Positions 6,707 to 32,881 of a stretch of DNA of 33,235 bases are shown here, one piece after another. The DNA is from Treponema sp. (lineage in GTDB: Bacteria; Spirochaetota; Spirochaetia; Treponematales; Breznakiellaceae): NCBI GenBank assembly GCA_031257675.1, contig JAIROG010000045.1, forward strand, positions 1 through 33,235, read 5' to 3'. Under the pieces are notes generated by a model, which was not told where the DNA came from, did not search any database, and saw nothing but the letters and a program-made list of their open reading frames with translations. The first letter of the stretch is position 1. Each line of letters begins with the position of its first letter. Position numbers and translations under genes: made by a program.

Positions 6707-6790
6707 AACGTTCTCCGTATTTACGATATATCTCATATCCCGGCGCCGCAAGCCCTGCCGCTCCTATACCCCAAAAATGCTCCAGGGTCC

Positions 6791-6989
6791 CGGACGCTTC
6801 AGTCTGCCTCCCGGATGACTCAATCTGTCCTCCGGCTGACTTAATCTGTCGACCGGACGCTTCATTCTGTCTTCCGGCCGGCTCAATCTGTCGACAGGAC
6901 GCTTCAATCTGTCCCCCGGATGACCCGATCTGTCGACCGGATGCTTCATTCTGTCCTCCGGCCGGCTCAGTCTGTCCCCCGAATATCTT
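6791..6989. repeat. 21-bp degenerate tandem array A
   Basis: Nine full 21-bp units start at 6801, 6822, 6843, 6864, 6885, 6906, 6927, 6948 and 6969, after a partial unit. The plus-strand consensus is close to AATCTGTCNNCCGGNNGNNTC. Units 3-4 (GACCGGACG, TTCCGGCCG) recur almost exactly as units 7-8, an 84-bp higher-order period. The minus strand stays open across the array as seven-residue repeats of the type DRLSRPE/DRMKRPV, but there is no convincing ribosome site. The array lies upstream of the PfkB kinase. It shares its period and the AATCTG(T/C)C core with array B at 23599-23803. Confidence 0.9.
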
Positions 6990-7001
6990 GTCCGCCCGGT
7001 A

Positions 7002-7061
7002 AAACAGGTCACCCGGCCTGCGGCCCAGACCGTCGGGCTTACCAATACAGTCCTGTTATGC
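7002..7061 (-). other. Candidate degenerate or short attC-like site
   Basis: GTTATGC at 7055-7061 (GCATAAC on the minus strand) is followed on that strand by AGGACTGTAT, exactly as at the complete site 7695-7805. It sits 20 nt after the stop of the flavin-reductase-like gene, as expected for the R'' end of an integron attC. The far end is poor: GTAAAAC at 7002-7008 is the best match, giving a 60-bp element with AACAGG/CCTGTT pairing. This may be the eroded end of a cassette array. Confidence 0.4.
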
Positions 7062-7694: not shown

Positions 7695-7805
7695 GCATAA
7701 CGTTCCGGCTTGCAATGTGGCGGAAAAAAACCACAAAGTGCCGACTGGGGTTTTTCGTAGACCGAGGGGGCTACTGCGCCCGAAGCGCATACAGTCCTGT
7801 TATGC
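7695..7805 (-). other. attC-like recombination site (111 bp)
   Basis: Ends are GCATAAC (7695-7701) and GTTATGC (7799-7805), perfectly complementary. They are followed inward by GTTCCGGC and by CAGTCC plus GCATA, with self-complementary segments in between (for example CCGACTGGGG and GAGGGGGC). Size and ends match the R''/R' organisation of integron attC sites. On the minus strand it starts 13 nt after the stop of the lipoprotein gene at 7819, the expected cassette geometry. Confidence 0.65.
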
Positions 7806-8376: not shown

Positions 8377-8472
8377 ACAGAACCTCCAAAAAAATAATAC
8401 GTTCATTTTATTATATTCAGATATTTTGTCAAGCCCCTTCAAAAATTTTTCAGAATATTTCATCGGCATTTC

Positions 8473-8638
8473 GCATAACGTTCCGGCGGTATATGACATT
8501 TTTGCAAGACCTGAAAACCGTGGGTTTCCAGGTCTTGCAAAAATGTGGGTGGGTCGAGCGTGGGAAGCGCAGCCGACCTAGCGAAACGCAACACTGAGGG
8601 CGCTACTGCGCCCGAAGCATATACGATATATGTTATAC
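8473..8638 (-). other. Long attC-like site with 51-bp palindrome
   Basis: Outer ends are GCATAAC (8473-8479, followed by GTTCCGGC as at the other sites) and GTTATAC (8632-8638). The shared inner segment GGGCGCTACTGCGCCCGAAGC is also present. The central part is replaced by a 51-bp hairpin at 8496-8546: 24-nt arms around ACATTTTTGCAAGACCTG with one mismatch and a 3-nt loop. It is longer than its relatives (166 bp), consistent with the variable terminal structure of attC sites. Confidence 0.55.
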
Positions 8639-14881: not shown

Positions 14882-15658
14882 ATGCAAGCGAAGCGGATCA
14901 TACCCTGTCTTGACGTAGATGACGGACGGGTGGTGAAGGGCGTTAAATTCAAGGGCATTCAGGACGCGGGCGATCCGGTTGATATGGCGCGGCGTTACAA
15001 TGCCGAAGGCGCCGATGAACTCACGTTTCTGGACATAGGCGCGTCGTACAAAAGTCGCGCCACCTTGCTTGACGTTGTTGCGCAAGTGGCGCGGGAGGTC
15101 TTTATTCCCCTGTGTGTGGGCGGGGGCATCCGCGCCGTTGACGACATGCGCGACGCCATGAACGCGGGCGCGGACAAGGTGTCCGTATGCACCTCGGCGT
15201 TGAACAACCCGCAACTTCTTGCGGATATGGCGGCGGCGTACGGCAGCCAATGTGTAGTCCTGTCCATTGACGCGAAGCGGGTGGGGGAAAAAAACGGCGC
15301 GCCGGTCTGGAGGGCGTTTTCCCACGGCGGCAGAACCGATACGGGCGTTGACGCAATCGAATGGGCGAAATTGGCGGTGTCCCTGGGCGCGGGCGAGATT
15401 CTTCTCAATTCAATAGACGCGGATGGAACTTCGGCGGGGTACGATCTTGCCCTGACAAAGGAGATCCTTGACGCCGTGCCGGTGCCGGTGATTGCGTCAG
15501 GCGGCGCGGGCAGCCTCGATCAGATCGCCGATGTATTATTGCCCTCCGCTACCAACGCGGACGCGGCGCTCGTGGCGTCAATGTTGCATTTTGGAAAAAC
15601 TACCATTGGCGAAATCAAGGCGTATGCGGAAAAAAAAGGAGTGACGGTTCGATGGTAA
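14882..15658 (+). CDS. hisF: Imidazole glycerol phosphate synthase subunit HisF
   Basis: Cyclase subunit of IGP synthase, (beta-alpha)8 barrel, 258 aa. With HisH it converts PRFAR and glutamine-derived ammonia to imidazole glycerol phosphate and AICAR. Catalytic residues Asp11 ([15 protein letters not shown]) and Asp130 (VLSIDAKR) are present, with phosphate-binding loops VGGGIR and ASGGAGS. The ribosome site AAAAAGGA precedes ATG 14882. It overlaps the following hisA-hisIE fusion by 7 nt (ATGGTAA), indicating coupled expression. hisH and the rest of the pathway are not in this window. Confidence 0.95.
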
Positions 15659-16935
15659 TCGCTTCAATAGATATTCAGGGTGGAAAAGTTGTACAGCTTA
15701 AACAAGGCGCGGAACTTGTGTTGCAGCGGGATAACGCCGCAGAACTCGCGGAAACGTTTGACACGTACGGCGAGGTGGCGGTCATTGATCTTGACGCGGC
15801 GATGGGCAGGGGATCGAATGCCGGCATGATAAAACCGTTGCTCCGCAAAGCCGTGTGCAGGGTAGGCGGCGGCGTCAGAACCGTTGCGCAGGCGCAAGAA
15901 CTGGTGAGCCTCGGAGCGCGGAAGATTATTGTGGGATCAAGCGCGTTCCGCGTCAACGGCGCATTCGCCGTCAACATCGCGTTTCTCGAAGCCCTGTCAA
16001 AAAAGATAGGGCGTGAGCGCGTCATTGTTGCCGTTGATGCGCGGGACAATGAAATAGTCGTTGACGGCTGGAAAACCCGCACCGGACTTCCGCTTGTCCA
16101 AAGCGCCAAAGCCGTTGAACCCTATGCGGGCGAACTCCTCTTCACCGGAGTTGAACGCGAAGGGTCCATGACCGGCATAGACCTTGAGCCAGTGAAACAG
16201 TTATGCGCCGCGGTCTCCTGCTTTGTCACCGCCGCCGGGGGCGTCTCCACCCTGGACGAAATTGAAGCGCTTGCGGCGCTTGGTTGCGATGTACAACTCG
16301 GCATGGCGCTTTACACCGGCGCGATCTCTCTTGCAGACGCCTTTGTCCGCAGCCTCAACTGGAAAAAGGGCGAAATTCTGGCGCCCCAGCCGTTCGCGCT
16401 CTTGCCGGTCATCGCCCAAAGCGTTGACGGACAGGTGATGATGTCCGGTTTCGCGGATCGTGAAGCCGTCGCCGAAACCTTTAAGCGCGGCAATCTCTGT
16501 TTCCACAGCCGCACCCGCAACACGCTCTGGATGAAGGGCGAACATTCGGGCAATACGCTGCGCCTCATCCGCATACGCGCCGACTGCGACCGTGACGCCC
16601 TGCTCGCAACTGTAGAGCCTGCCGGACCCGTATGCCACACCGGCGCGTGGTCGTGCTTCAATACAAACCGCGATTACACATGGCGTCTTCTTCAGTCCGT
16701 CATAGCCGGACGGTTTCGCAACCCCACGCCCGGATCCTACACCGCCACTCTGGATGACAACCTCGTACGCGAGAAAGTCCGCGAAGAAGCCGAGGAACTC
16801 TGCGCGGCTGCCGCCCATGACGACATCGTGTGGGAAGCCGCGGACCTGCTCTATTTCGCCACCGCGCTTATCACCCGCGCTGGCGTCGCCGTAGAAGAAG
16901 TTCTTGCGGAACTTGACAGAAGGCGCAAAAAGTAA
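15652..16935 (+). CDS. hisA-hisIE: HisA-HisI-HisE trifunctional fusion
   Basis: 427-aa protein joining three histidine-pathway domains. HisA-like isomerase (1-238) is a TIM barrel with catalytic Asp7 ([11 protein letters not shown]) and Asp129 (VAVDARD) plus phosphate loops GGGVRT and AAGGVS. HisI PRA-CH (about 243-345) has [16 protein letters not shown] and the zinc ligands in ADCDRD (Cys312) and [10 protein letters not shown] (Cys328, Cys335). HisE PRA-PH (about 368-427) has [15 protein letters not shown] and [13 protein letters not shown]. The reactions are consecutive: PRATP to PRAMP (HisE), PRAMP to ProFAR (HisI), ProFAR to PRFAR (HisA), and the product goes to HisF, encoded just upstream. 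Normally HisA is separate and HisIE is bifunctional. The HisE histidine after LLY is replaced by Phe (LLYFA). Confidence 0.92.
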
Positions 16936-16950
16936 CGCCGAAGGCGCGGC

Positions 16951-17086
16951 GGCGCGGGTATGCCAAAATAGAGGTTGCGCAGAAAATTCATCCGTGATAG
17001 AAGTGCGCTATAGCTCTTTTATGCGGGGAAAAATTGCCCTGCCGCATGGCAGCGTCGCATCTTACTCTTGTCATAATGGGAACGTT
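16951..17086 (+). repeat. 136-bp direct repeat, copy 1
   Basis: Matches 19334-19469 over 136 bp without gaps, with roughly 15 substitutions counted by eye. The unit runs from GGCGCGGGTATGCCAAAATAG to GGAACGTT. It contains a sigma-70-like promoter and the beginning of an exported-protein ORF (MAASHLTLVIMGTF here). Beyond 17086 the two copies diverge completely. The two copies bracket the beta-CASP gene. Confidence 0.92.
16975..17003 (+). promoter_or_regulatory. Promoter in repeat copy 1 (beta-CASP gene)
   Basis: TTGCGC (16975-16980), 17 nt, TAGAAG (16998-17003). It is conserved in position with the second repeat copy, where the -10 is the better TAGAAT. It would drive the leader ORF at 17046 and the beta-CASP gene. 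Confidence 0.55.
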
Positions 17087-17132
17087 TATAAATTCTTCAG
17101 TATTGAACATAAAGGAGGTTGTTTATGGATGA
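17046..17132 (+). CDS. 28-codon leader ORF overlapping the beta-CASP start
   Basis: ATG 17046 opens a 28-aa ORF starting MAASHLTLVIMGTF, homologous to the signal peptide of the ORF at 19429. It reads through a GGAGG ribosome site and stops at TGA 17130-17132, which overlaps the ATG of the metallo-beta-lactamase gene (ATGGATGA). It looks like the 5' end of a duplicated exported-protein gene now used as a translated leader. Coupling to the downstream gene is inferred from the overlap. Confidence 0.4.
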   Translation: MAASHLTLVIMGTFINSSVLNIKEVVYG

Positions 17133-18255
17133 CAAGGCGCAGAACAAGCTGCGAATTAAATTTTTAGGAGCGATAGGTACGGCAACTGGCTCATGTACTT
17201 TGCTTGAATACAGTACCCCTGATAAACTGAATTATTATTTGGTTGATATTGGTTCATATCAGAATGAAAAACAAGCTGATAATACACAGAAGATATTAAA
17301 AGATTATGCGCCAAAGCTATCGAAAATATTTATTACCCATGCGCATTTGGATCACATTGGGCTTTTGCCATATTTAGTCAATTATGGGTTTAAGGGTGAA
17401 GTATGGTGTACAAAGGCGACCATGGAGCTTATGAAAGTAATGCTTGAGGATGCGATAAAAATACAAATCCCTGATATTCAACCTAATTCAATAATTAAAG
17501 AAATTAATTTTACCTGTATTGATGATGAAGCGGAGCATCCTGAATTTGTATTTAAAAAATCTCATATACCTCTAGCGCCTTGTCTGTTTGTCAATATAAC
17601 CCGAAGCGCCCACATACTTGGTTCTGTATCGTTTAATTTTGAGTTGGTTGAACAAGTGGAAACAGACATCCCAATCAAAGACAAAGAATGGATACACATT
17701 CATTTTTCAGGCGATATTGGTCCGGTGTCAGAAGCGCATATACCAAACATCCTGTTTAAACACCACCATATACCTTTTCCCTCTTCAAAACGCAAATACA
17801 TTGTATTGGAATCAACTTATGGCGGCCACAATCGTGATAAGACAAGCTATACATTTGATAAAAGGATAGAAAAACTAGGAGAAATTATTGAAAAGGCGTT
17901 TAAGAAAGGACAGACAATCATTATTCCCGCCTTTGCCTTGGACAGAGCGCAGCAGCTTCTTGTAGACTTGTATTATTGGAGAAAACATGCAAGTCTTGAA
18001 TTCAAGAAATTCTGCGCTGAGACCATCAAATGGACACAGCTCCTCTCAGGTAACAACGAGGGAAAGAAATTAGAAAATAAAATTATAAGTGAAATTAGTG
18101 GGATGGAAGGTATTAAAAAAGAAGCCCTTAAAAAGAACCCCTTTGTTAAGGATTTGCCTTCAGAACTACAGGATGAGCTTTTATCCGGTTGGGATATGAA
18201 ATTGGATATTGAAATAGAATCGCCATTAATAAATGAAATTAACAATATATATTAA
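17125..18255 (+). CDS. Beta-CASP metallo-beta-lactamase RNase-like protein, N-terminal part
   Basis: First 376 aa of a metallo-beta-lactamase fold protein of the beta-CASP group (RNase J/CPSF73-like nucleases). Metal motifs: motif 1 Asp in VDIGSY, motif 2 THAHLDHIG (residues 71-79), motif 3 His in RSAHILGS, motif 4 Asp in HFSGDIGP. The beta-CASP start is ESTYGG, then TIIIPAFALDRAQQLL. It is interrupted by stop TAA 18253-18255 just after ESPLINEINNIY. The rest of the domain continues in another frame at 18233-19075. Ribosome site AAAGGAGG lies before ATG 17125. The likely role is processing or degradation of RNA; a DNA substrate is not excluded. Confidence 0.85.
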   Translation: MDDKAQNKLRIKFLGAIGTATGSCTLLEYSTPDKLNYYLVDIGSYQNEKQADNTQKILKDYAPKLSKIFITHAHLDHIGLLPYLVNYGFKGEVWCTKATMELMKVMLEDAIKIQIPDIQPNSIIKEINFTCIDDEAEHPEFVFKKSHIPLAPCLFVNITRSAHILGSVSFNFELVEQVETDIPIKDKEWIHIHFSGDIGPVSEAHIPNILFKHHHIPFPSSKRKYIVLESTYGGHNRDKTSYTFDKRIEKLGEIIEKAFKKGQTIIIPAFALDRAQQLLVDLYYWRKHASLEFKKFCAETIKWTQLLSGNNEGKKLENKIISEISGMEGIKKEALKKNPFVKDLPSELQDELLSGWDMKLDIEIESPLINEINNIY

Positions 18256-19075
18256 CAACTTGCCTGATGATAAATTCAATACCAATATCAAACAGTTCAA
18301 GTTTAAATATTTATCTGATGACTTTATAACTCGCTTCGATTTGAATGAAGGCGCGGAAGGAGAATACTCCGACGAGAATCACAAAAAAATACGAGAAAAG
18401 ATAATAAAAATATTAAAAGAAATGTTGCCTTGTTATAAAAAAAATAAAAAAGATAAAAATAACGCCAGGAAGAAAATTATTATCGCAGCTTCGGGTATGT
18501 GTGAAGAAGGAGCTGTGGTGGATGTGTTAAAAAAATATCTTCCTAACGAAAAAGCAGCCGTCGTTCTGACAGGATTTCAAGCGGAAGATACAAACGGCTG
18601 GAAATTACGTGAATTAAATTCATTCGATGAAGATTATAAAAGAAGAACACGTTTGCGTAATGTAGGCGTCAGATTGTCGGATATAAAATGTGAAATCATT
18701 AATGAATTGATTCCTTATTACTCTGGCCATGCGGATCAGTCGCAACTTGTTGATTATATCAAAGATGTTGTCAATGAAACTCCTCAAACGACGGTCTTTC
18801 TAAATCATGGCGTTGACGATTCTCGCAACACATTAAAAGAAGAAATCGAAAAGAAATATAATCATGAAAAAATAAAAGTATCGGTTGAACTCCCTCCATT
18901 AAACCGATGGATAAATCTGAATACCGGTGAAACAGAAATCGAAGAAGCGGCGCCAGTATTGACTAATAATAACCCGCTGAAGTATTTTAATGTTAATAAT
19001 ATACATCTCTATCTTCCAGCGATATATGATGACAATAAAATATCCGAAATAATAAATTTTCTCTTGAAACAGTAA
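18233..19075 (+). CDS. Beta-CASP metallo-beta-lactamase protein, C-terminal part (frameshifted)
   Basis: Continuation of the preceding gene in the next frame, up to 280 aa. It holds the remaining catalytic motifs: KIIIAASGMCEEGAV (beta-CASP motif A region), VVLTGFQAEDTNGWKL, the motif B/C histidine in IPYYSGHADQSQL, and TTVFLNHGVDDSRNT. There is no ribosome site at 18233. The junction contains an AT-dinucleotide run (AATATATATTAA, 18244-18255). One more AT would fuse ...INNIY directly to INNLPDDKF and give one protein of about 650 aa. Frameshift mutation, phase variation, programmed slippage or sequence error are the possibilities. Confidence 0.8.
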   Translation: MKLTIYINNLPDDKFNTNIKQFKFKYLSDDFITRFDLNEGAEGEYSDENHKKIREKIIKILKEMLPCYKKNKKDKNNARKKIIIAASGMCEEGAVVDVLKKYLPNEKAAVVLTGFQAEDTNGWKLRELNSFDEDYKRRTRLRNVGVRLSDIKCEIINELIPYYSGHADQSQLVDYIKDVVNETPQTTVFLNHGVDDSRNTLKEEIEKKYNHEKIKVSVELPPLNRWINLNTGETEIEEAAPVLTNNNPLKYFNVNNIHLYLPAIYDDNKISEIINFLLKQ

Positions 19076-19333
19076 TATGATTTAGGCGATTCGCTCAATA
19101 TGCCAGTGGATGCCTCCCTTTGGAAATCGAAAGGCTTCCCCTCTCATAAATCAAGTGTAAACATGAAGTATATTGCTTTAGCCCATGAAAATGACAATAG
19201 CCTATAGACAAAGATAATATCGTAAAGGATTATCCATAGCCAAGAGGGACGCAAACATGGATAAAATAAACGAGTTCATGACAATTGCTGAAGTAGAGCG
19301 CCATAGGCGGCGCCGCGCCGTCCCCTCTAGTGA
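19076..19333. other. Intergenic after the beta-CASP gene
   Basis: About 260 bp with no recognisable gene. An ORF from ATG 19257 (MDKINEFMTIAEVE...) with a purine-rich upstream stretch runs into the second direct repeat in a frame unlike that of the exported-protein ORF. It could be a relic of another gene's 5' end. Confidence 0.4.
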
Positions 19334-19469
19334 GGCGCGGGTATGCCAAAATAGAGGTTGCGCAAAAAATTTATCCGTGATAGAATTGCGTTATGGCTCT
19401 TTTATGTGGGGAAAGATTGCCCTGCCGCATGTTAGCGTCGTATCTTATTCTTGTTGTAATAGGAACGTT
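19334..19469 (+). repeat. 136-bp direct repeat, copy 2
   Basis: Second copy of the 16951-17086 repeat, with the same length and no gaps. Most differences are transitions making this copy more AT-rich. It carries the promoter and start of an exported-protein ORF that continues past the repeat, so this copy may be the ancestral location of that gene. Confidence 0.92.
19358..19386 (+). promoter_or_regulatory. Promoter in repeat copy 2
   Basis: TTGCGC (19358-19363), 17-nt spacer, TAGAAT (19381-19386): 4/6 and 5/6 matches to sigma-70 consensus with ideal spacing. It predicts a transcript start near 19393, about 36 nt before ATG 19429. Confidence 0.6.
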
Positions 19470-19767
19470 CGCTTTTTCGATGGCAGACAACTTTGATTTC
19501 TCTAAATTCGAGGAAGATCAAACGGTGTCAGGCGGTTTTTTTGCCTCAATAGAGCATACAGTCGACTGGTTGATTGAAAATACAACGAAGATCGGCAAAG
19601 CTGACAGGCATTCGTCTTCTCCTGCGCGCAATGGCGCCTTGCGTACGTCCGCGCCGCCCGGCATAGAGAACGCCGGAACTTTTCTTGTTCAATCACCGTT
19701 AAAAACAATTAGAAAAACGCAATGCCCCAATAGTAGAGACACTATCTTTCTAAAACTCCGAATTTGA
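19429..19767 (+). CDS. Exported protein, probably truncated, unknown
   Basis: 112 aa from ATG 19429. The N-terminus MLASYLILVVIGTFAFSMA is a convincing signal peptide. The first about 45 mature residues (DNFDFSKFEEDQ...DWLIENTTKIGK) look protein-like and acidic. After that the composition changes (Ser/Arg/Pro-rich), suggesting that the true 3' part is lost or replaced. Alternative upstream starts exist in frame (19393), but the signal peptide decides 19429. Its 5' end lies within the 136-bp direct repeat, so a partial duplicate of this gene precedes the beta-CASP gene. No family recognised. Confidence 0.45.
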   Translation: MLASYLILVVIGTFAFSMADNFDFSKFEEDQTVSGGFFASIEHTVDWLIENTTKIGKADRHSSSPARNGALRTSAPPGIENAGTFLVQSPLKTIRKTQCPNSRDTIFLKLRI

Positions 19768-19940: not shown

Positions 19941-20177
19941 ATGGAACGATTTTGGAATATTTTCTGGAAAATTTTCGGAGTTGCAATACTTATAGCGTTA
20001 AGTGTTGGCATTATCGGAGGAATTGTCATGCATTCCGCAAATTTTACCTATACACTGGCACAGCAAATATTTGCCGTGGCTCTGGGAATAAGCGGGATTA
20101 TCGGCTTTATGGTAGTCCCTGTTGAAATGTATCTTGAGGATAGAATTCAGAGGAAGAAGGATAATGTTATTAAATGA
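19941..20177 (+). CDS. Small two-helix membrane protein
   Basis: 78 aa with two predicted membrane helices (IFGVAILIALSVGIIGGIV and a second over IFAVALGISGIIGFMVVPV) and a short charged tail (EDRIQRKKDN). Start ATG 19941 has TTAGGAG 7 nt upstream; a longer open frame exists upstream but lacks support. It overlaps the following PTS IIA gene by 14 nt, so they are co-translated. Function unknown. Confidence 0.65.
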   Translation: MERFWNIFWKIFGVAILIALSVGIIGGIVMHSANFTYTLAQQIFAVALGISGIIGFMVVPVEMYLEDRIQRKKDNVIK

Positions 20178-20613
20178 TGTTTTTTCCCAACGCTCCATAA
20201 AACTCGATCTTGAGAGCAAGACGAAAGATGCGGCTCTTGCCGAACTGCTCGAAATCATAACGCTTGAGCATCCTGAATACGACTATAATGAAATGTATGC
20301 GGCGATAAACAGCCGTGAGAATAAAATGAGATCCGGCATCGGTTCAGGCATTGCGGTTCCGCATGGTTATTGCCGGAGTATTAACGCCATTACCGGTGCC
20401 ATTGGAATTTCAAAGACCGGCATTGATTATAATTCTCTTGACCATAAGCCGGTTCATCTGGTGTTTATGTTGGTGATGGGCGAAACATCGCAGGAAAGCC
20501 ATTTGCGTGTGTTGAACAAGGTTTTCACGCTGGTCAATTCTGAAACGGGCGCCTTGATGATGACGGCGAAGACCGCCCAGGAAGTGTATGCCATGTTGTC
20601 CCGAATTTATTAA
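20164..20613 (+). CDS. PTS EIIA domain protein (PtsN/fructose-type)
   Basis: 149-aa single-domain EIIA of the fructose/mannitol/nitrogen-PTS family, cytoplasmic. The phosphoryl-accepting histidine is His67 in GIGSGIAVPHGYC. The flanking order (MRSGIGSGIAVPH, then PVHLVFMLVMGETSQESHLRVL) is typical. No EIIB or EIIC is adjacent, so a regulatory PtsN-like role is more likely than sugar transport; this is inference. The ribosome site AGAAGG lies 4-5 nt before ATG 20164, inside the end of the membrane-protein gene. A strong hairpin follows at 20758-20789. Confidence 0.85.
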   Translation: MLLNDVFSQRSIKLDLESKTKDAALAELLEIITLEHPEYDYNEMYAAINSRENKMRSGIGSGIAVPHGYCRSINAITGAIGISKTGIDYNSLDHKPVHLVFMLVMGETSQESHLRVLNKVFTLVNSETGALMMTAKTAQEVYAMLSRIY

Positions 20614-20789: not shown

Positions 20790-20877
20790 GGGTCGCACGG
20801 CCGTTCTATTTTACTAACTCTCAATGCCACATGAAAACTTTTCTCCGCATACGCTGAGGATGCAAGAAAAAAGATTC

Positions 20878-21002
20878 GCCTTTCGTTCCGGCTGTTTACG
20901 ACGTTTGTGGCGGAGAGAAACCGCACAAAGCCCGTAGTCCGACTGCGGTTTTTCGTAGCCCGATCCGCCTACTGGCGGCGCAGCGTATACAGACTGTTAT
21001 GT
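20878..21002. other. attC-like site, left end degenerate
   Basis: The right end is GTTATGT (20996-21002). The left end GCCTTTC followed by GTTCCGGC has lost the AAC core. The interior (GTTTACGACGTTTGTGGCGG ... GATCCGCCTACTGGCGGCG ... GCGTATACAGACT) is nearly identical to 24402-24526, which keeps an intact left end. By homology this is an eroded copy of the same recombination site. Confidence 0.55.
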
Positions 21003-23584: not shown

Positions 23585-23803
23585 GCTGATTCATGTTGAA
23601 TCAGCCAATGGTGAACTTGAATCAGCCCCCGATCAGGGCGAATCTGCCTCCGATCAAAGTGAATCAGCCCCCGATCGGGATGAATCTGCCAACAGTCAAG
23701 GCAAATCTGCCAACGGTCAGGGTGAATCAGCCTCCGGTTAAGGTAAATCAGCCAACGGCCAAGTTGAATCAGTCTCCGGTTAGGGTAAATCTGCCAACGG
23801 GGA
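23585..23803. repeat. 21-bp degenerate tandem array B
   Basis: Ten units of 21 bp start at 23599 and every 21 bp to 23788. The plus-strand consensus is AATC(A/T)GCCNNCGGTNANGGTG. The plus strand reads seven-residue repeats (NQPPVKV, NLPTVRV) and the minus strand also stays open, yet neither has a good translation start. The end near the gene start is capped by an inverted copy of the core: GCTGATTC/GAATCAGC at 23585-23605. Same period and similar core as array A (6791-6989), and likewise located upstream of a minus-strand gene (start 23552). Confidence 0.9.
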
Positions 23804-24401
23804 GCGTGGATGCGGTTGTATGGGGTTTTGGGGCGTTTCGGCGCTGGTTTTAAGGGGTTGACACGCCGTCTTTTATATACAATATAATCGTGAGCCGGGG
23901 CAAAGTCTACGACTTTGCCTTGGCGTAGTCTGTTTTTATACCAGCCTTTGTCAAAAGCATAGAAATATTGTAGTAAATACGGAAAATTTGTCAATGGCTT
24001 CTAAAAGAGTGAAAAAATGACACATTTTGGGGGCGGTGGGTGGGCGAAGCCCACTCTCCGCCCCTTGTGATAATGCTTCTTGGGAGTTTGGGGTAAATTC
24101 CAGGCGGCATGGAGTCCGCCTGCGTAGGCTAATTTGGGGGCAAAAAAACTTTGCTTTTAGGGTGTTTTGGGGATGTTTTTTGATTTTATGTAACATGTAA
24201 TAAGGGTTATCGAAGCGAGCTGTACTATAGCTTGAGCCGCCCTTGATACTACGGCGGGTTATGCAATAATTTTTTATTCTATTATTTACAAATACCTTTT
24301 TAATTATATATTCTGAATTTTTTAGATATTTTTATTTTCTATACATTATTTTATCTTTTAATTTTTTATTTTATTTTCCCAACCAATTCAAAACCAATTG
24401 C
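23804..24401. other. Intergenic with two strong hairpins
   Basis: About 600 bp without a supported gene. It contains GGCAAAGTC-TAC-GACTTTGCC at 23899-23919 (T run 12 nt later) and a long GC-rich hairpin at 24029-24064 (GGGGCGG...CCGCCCC with GTGGGC-GAA-GCCCAC at the tip). A smaller one is AGGCGG/CCGCCT near 24102-24121. The last 150 bp are very AT-rich. It could hold a structured RNA, but I cannot assign one. Confidence 0.45.
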
Positions 24402-24526
24402 GCATAACGTTCCGGCTGTTTACGGCGTTTGTGGCGGAGAGAAACCGCACAAAGTCCGTAGGCCGCTGCGGTTTTTCGTAGCCCGATCCGCCTACTGGCG
24501 GCGAAGCGCATACAATCCTGTTATGT
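24402..24526 (-). other. attC-like recombination site (125 bp)
   Basis: Complementary ends GCATAAC (24402-24408) and GTTATGT (24520-24526) enclose self-complementary stretches (GTGGCGGAGAGAAACCGCAC; GATCCGCCTACTGGCGG). The stop codon of the minus-strand P13-like gene (TAA, 24521-24523) lies inside the right end, the usual layout of an integron cassette. About 90% identical by eye to 20878-21002. Confidence 0.65.
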
Positions 24527-32705: not shown

Positions 32706-32764
32706 ATTTTTTCAGACGCCTGTTTCTTGTCTGCATACTATCATATAATGGTCTGTCTGTATAT

Positions 32765-32881
32765 GGCGTTTGCCGGGTCGGACAAGGGCTTTGTTGCGGC
32801 GTATACGCCGCAACGCGAAATCAGAGCCGCTACGGAGTCCGATCCGCCTGCCGGCGGCGAAGCGCAACATGGCCGTTAGGC
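32765..32881. other. attC-like site, diverged
   Basis: The right end is GTTAGGC (32875-32881), a canonical integron R' core. The interior shares GATCCGCCTGCCGGCGGCGAAGCGCA with the other sites (GATCCGCCTACTGGCGGCGAAGCGCA at 24486-24511 allowing substitutions). A separate stem GTTGCGGCGTATACGCCGCAAC is at 32791-32812. The left end is not conserved (GGCGTTTGCCGG is the best counterpart). Confidence 0.45.
32791..32812. repeat. Perfect 22-bp palindrome inside the attC-like site
   Basis: GTTGCGGCGTATACGCCGCAAC reads the same on both strands. It is located within the diverged attC-like site and probably forms its tip stem. Confidence 0.6.

Follow-up and report, generated by a model that had tools for sequence, protein, structure and literature searches.

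Beta-CASP ribonucleases of the aCPSF1/FttA and Cas14-like families (TIGR03675, NF045584) are the closest described counterparts of the gene considered here, with which they share the order of the metallo-beta-lactamase (MBL), Beta-Casp and RMMBL domains as well as the catalytic motifs, and their profiles give the best matches over both halves of the gene. Similarly, when an intact homologue (from genome G007) was matched by sequence to the PDB, Cas14 came out best, followed by archaeal CPSF and TTHA0252. However, the NCBIfam equivalog cut-off for Cas14, the nuclease of type VII CRISPR, stands at 800 bits, as against the 109 and 58 bits reached by the two halves and the 148 and 167 bits reached by intact homologues; and the 580-bit cut-off of TIGR03675 compares with 106 bits here, for a match that lacks the N-terminal part of aCPSF1 and sets in only at profile position 172. 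Instead of the Cas7/Cas5 operon of Cas14, the neighborhood of our gene consists of hisIE and of genes for an exported, a membrane and a PtsN-like protein, and reading the ORFs that adjoin its homologues in G007, G093, G153 and G229 revealed no Cas7/Cas5 neighbors there. In contrast to both families, these are orphan bacterial genes, and the copy described below is, in addition, frameshifted.

With respect to its flanks, the locus recalls the insertion sequences IS1549 and IS1634, which make variable target duplications of 8 to 514 bp (PMC2266710), in that target DNA is repeated directly, over a long stretch, on both sides of an insertion. It differs from these elements in that neither ORFs nor profile searches disclosed a transposase or integrase in the inserted module, in that no convincing inverted repeats occur at the module ends (17087 and 19333), and in that flanking repeats are not seen around the homologues. 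A GC-rich inverted pair at 16940-16955 and 19307-19322 was considered and set aside as weak and lying off the module edges. Finally, the patchy occurrence of the gene, its high AT content and its different locus in each genome liken it to sporadic, horizontally acquired single-gene cargo, from which the present case departs in carrying, at a single site, a direct duplication of unusual length.

A native operon and its duplicated upstream region

The window, by which we mean the whole stretch of 33,235 nucleotides that was analyzed, is contig C63 of an 83% complete draft genome (2.37 Mb, 133 contigs). A repeat search of the window found two ungapped 136-bp direct repeats on the forward strand, at 16951-17086 and 19334-19469, which are exactly the coordinates given in a preliminary description of the locus. 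The copies are alike at 122 of 136 positions (89.7% identity) and have 31 bp as their longest common exact run; a BLAST comparison of the left and right flanks of the module matches them with E = 4e-50, far beyond chance, and the homology between them stops sharply at 17086. Further copies were searched for throughout the draft genome, and there is no third. Between the two lies an AT-rich module of 2247 bp (17087-19333, forward strand) with a G/C content of about 35% (34-39%), whereas the values are 57-60% over hisIE to its left and 50-60% over hisIE together with the flanks.

The left anchor of the locus, hisIE (15652-16935, forward strand), is a histidine biosynthesis gene, named by inspection, that encodes a 427-aa fusion with a HisI/HisE-like C-terminal part and whose synteny is conserved in G002, G003, G004, G005 and G006. 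On the right, likewise on the forward strand, follow a small exported protein of 124 aa (19393-19767; of the same length in G002 and G006, its export being suggested by the N-terminal sequence), a small membrane protein of 78 aa encoded by the second gene of the operon (19941-20177), and, as the product of the third gene, a PtsN-like EIIA protein (20164-20613) recognized by profile searches. Because this exported/membrane/PtsN triplet recurs at other loci in G005, G024 and G001, the 136-bp repeat is the native upstream region of the operon, comprising its promoter and the 5' end of its first gene, and not the end of a mobile element. Repeat search and alignment further indicate that the right copy, with the promoter region and the first part of the exported-protein gene, still looks functional, and that the left copy is a duplicate of the same segment that has become degenerate.

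An empty site is found in G006, where hisIE is followed by one 136-bp unit and then by the 124-aa exported protein, the small membrane protein and the PtsN-like EIIA, so that the sequence duplicated in our genome is single, as it is in the empty site of a transposon or insertion sequence that makes a long target duplication. The order in G002 is similar, except that about 570 bp of other DNA separate hisIE from its single unit. The module itself occupies this site in one of the 12 genomes of the genus, namely the window's own, and is absent there from the 11 other congeners. The existence of an empty-site relative bears out the earlier proposal that the module entered at, or was duplicated together with, the start of the exported-protein gene.

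The spacer of G002 (L025 2527-3096) reaches up to the left boundary of the repeat, and short pieces of it crop up in various other genomes; it is probably an independent insertion. When it was compared with the module, no clear relation emerged: forward scores fell within those of shuffled sequences, and the reverse-strand scores, which only just surpassed theirs (31 versus at most 30, and 40 versus at most 39), were judged not meaningful. Elsewhere in the window, dispersed repeats of 30-65 bp, up to 96% alike, occur at 7745-7793, 8468-8504, 8593-8624, 20873-20991, 24397-24514 and 32738-32870 and resemble a repeat of the REP type or a small mobile one, and arrays of 21-bp tandem units lie at 6769-7020 and 23597-23827, the second of them with open frames on both strands.

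The frameshifted nuclease gene and its relatives

Direct reading of the module places a ribosome-binding site, AAAGGAGG (17111-17118, forward strand), ahead of the start ATG of the nuclease gene at 17125. As defined by ORFs, profiles and alignment, the 5' part of the gene (17119-18255, forward strand) encodes the MBL domain with the motifs HAHLDH and FSGDIG and ends at a frameshift, and the 3' part (18233-19075, forward strand) encodes the Beta-Casp and RMMBL domains with the motifs SGHAD and LNHG. Pfam matches above the gathering scores were obtained to PF00753/PF16661 in the first half and to PF10996 and PF07521 in the second, such that the combined halves display the arrangement of the beta-CASP MBL nuclease superfamily (an HxHxDH-type MBL domain, then Beta-Casp, then RMMBL), and alignment with homologues indicates that the catalytic motifs THAHLDH, FSGDIG, YYSGHAD and FLNHG are all kept. 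The repeats had been described as enclosing an AT-rich metallo-beta-lactamase gene; an AT-rich sequence for an MBL/beta-CASP/RMMBL protein is indeed what they enclose, but it is laid out in two overlapping frames and not in one. These halves, whose junction falls at an AT-repeat tract near 18240, align contiguously and end to end with intact homologues, with a single net change of frame. Given that the genome is a draft of the completeness stated above, an error of assembly may account for the frameshift; the gene is probably a pseudogene that is being lost. Substitutions between it and a remnant in G004 number 26, 16 and 44 at codon positions 1, 2 and 3, respectively (chi-square about 14, 2 df, calculated by hand), and this third-position excess argues that the nuclease gene was, for some of its past, subject to selection. 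The remnant (L079 1-608) carries several indels and an internal deletion, and its locus is unrelated to hisIE. PADLOC returned only a weak match to ZorB, which was judged spurious.

The rest of the module is a non-coding tail (19076-19333, not assigned to a strand) that matched nothing in the 39 relatives searched. A search of the window's own genome with the same tail returned a 36-bp match of 92%, between 19183-19218 and intergenic DNA close to the end of another contig (C82 5848-5883, equivalent to L086 1501-1536).

Matches to the nuclease at E <= 1e-50 are present in 5 of the 394 genomes of the order, the window's own included. Full-length homologues of about 690-750 aa are encoded in G007, G093, G153 and G229, in each case as a solo gene at an unrelated locus, and a fragment resides in G004; the homologues are more AT-rich than their flanks. 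This patchy distribution supports horizontal acquisition, and a horizontal origin is what we infer for the gene in the window. The further genome and viral contig collections that were scanned yielded no relatives; the relatives held by plasmids and phages align over no more than part of the protein, with about 25-32% identity, so that no vehicle emerged. Around the four other full-length homologues, to which this comparison was confined (the flanks of the G004 fragment being left aside), no flanking direct repeats were found beyond short chance matches, which implies that the module does not as a rule come with the 136-bp repeats.

Fate of the two copies and possible routes of insertion

Promoter-like sites are apparent by direct reading in both copies on the forward strand, as TTGCGC-17-TAGAAG in the left (16975-17003) and as TTGCGC-17-TAGAAT in the right (19358-19386). 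A four-way alignment of the left and right copies with the units of G002 and G006 shows that the -10 box TAGAAT is common to the latter three and that only the left copy reads TAGAAG; by the same token, the ATG that starts the exported-protein gene at 19393, and that is also found in G002 and G006, is replaced by ATA at 17010. Each copy had been credited in the preliminary description with a promoter and the first 14 or so codons of the exported protein. A promoter region is present in both, and some 26 codons corresponding to the beginning of the exported ORF persist in the left copy; on account of the ATA, however, its "first codons" do not constitute a normal start. With the start codon and the last T of the -10 box gone from the left copy, its promoter is probably weak now. 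A remnant leader frame running from 17046 would end at a stop codon that overlaps the nuclease start at 17125, and any coupling of this frame to translation of the nuclease is speculation. In the right copy, the -10-like box (window 19381-19395) ends 6 nt before the conserved ATG with no ribosome-binding site, an arrangement that is conserved in G002 and G006. Judged from this spacing between TTGCGC-17-TAGAAT and the ATG, the exported-protein gene of the right copy may possibly give rise to a leaderless transcript.

Relative to the distance that separates them from G002 and G006, the left and right copies have diverged from each other by a fraction of 0.64 (95% interval 0.37-0.94), as estimated from 120 shared sites. 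Since the copies differ by 10% and thus by about this fraction of the between-species divergence, either the insertion probably happened long ago or a diverged donor probably supplied the extra copy. In the four-way alignment neither copy is as close to G002 or G006 as it is to the other copy; the grouping of the two is weakly favored, and not significantly so, over that of the left copy with G006 (delta lnL 1.2, 120 sites), and for this reason the left copy could have arrived with the module from a diverged relative.

We consider it fairly probable (about 0.72) that the locus reflects an orphan beta-CASP nuclease gene that was acquired horizontally and is now decaying, accompanied by an incidental duplication of the target. 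According to this scenario, an orphan long beta-CASP gene of the aCPSF1/Cas14-like sequence family would have entered between hisIE and the exported/membrane/PtsN operon and, in doing so, would have left the 136-bp target, with the operon promoter and the first codons, on both of its sides, be it by insertion at staggered ends or by integration of a circle or fragment that carried a homologous 136-bp piece. The right copy would have gone on serving the operon; the left copy, placed ahead of the nuclease gene, may have supplied it with a promoter at first and would then have degenerated, and the nuclease gene would have been frameshifted and is probably on its way to being lost. The suggestion made earlier that the module captured a promoter is thus plausible for the time of insertion, but the captured copy now lacks both the start codon and the last T of the -10 box.

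The same 10% difference acquires another meaning, that of donor-recipient divergence as opposed to age, if a circle or fragment from a related species bearing the nuclease gene and a homologous 136-bp piece integrated by homologous recombination in the Campbell manner. Such a course of events is possible, if on the whole unlikely: the divergence of the copies is indeed similar to that from the nearest congeners (hisIE 90%), at three sites the left copy agrees with G006 and the right copy with G002, and the alternative tree is not rejected, but left and right are still closest to each other, and no donor with the nuclease beside the 136-bp unit was encountered among the 394 genomes of the order or in the genus. 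The 26 or so codons kept in the left copy could alternatively stem from a tandem duplication of the whole exported-protein gene, most of whose first copy was later replaced by the nuclease gene; the sharp end of homology at 17086 and the lack of any remnant of the rest of the exported-protein gene within the module render this improbable.

More remote from the data is the proposal of the preliminary description that recombination between the repeats loops out the module and thereby switches a promoter between the nuclease and the exported protein. Direct repeats of 136 bp that share 31 consecutive identical bases could recombine to some extent. However, with a whole promoter in each repeat, excision would do no more than remove the nuclease gene, and the exported-protein gene would keep its promoter in either state; furthermore, at 10% divergence the copies are not being kept alike by exchange, the -10 box and start codon of the left copy are degraded, the module contains no recombinase, and the other homologues lack flanking repeats. 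We therefore abandon the switch as very improbable. Least credible of all is that the repeat is a common regulatory unit standing before several genes of a family, in an arrangement that is fixed and functional for the nuclease. The repeat is, to be sure, the native upstream region of an operon, but it exists in only two copies in the draft genome and in a single copy in G002 and G006, none was seen in other congeners, and the left copy has decayed at its -10 box and start.

As an example of a foreign gene that was placed behind a duplicated native promoter and then decayed, the locus exemplifies a fairly ordinary genome history. A by-product of its analysis is a small and patchy family of aCPSF1/Cas14-like beta-CASP proteins of about 690-750 residues, encoded by solo genes at different loci in related genomes, to which the libraries searched assign no function. 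It is a long shot, yet conceivable, that these long orphan aCPSF1/Cas14-like genes form a mobile single-gene lineage, for example as defense or RNA-decay cargo, that travels by an unrecognized route able to leave long target duplications, in which case the copy in the window would be one instance whose scar can still be seen.
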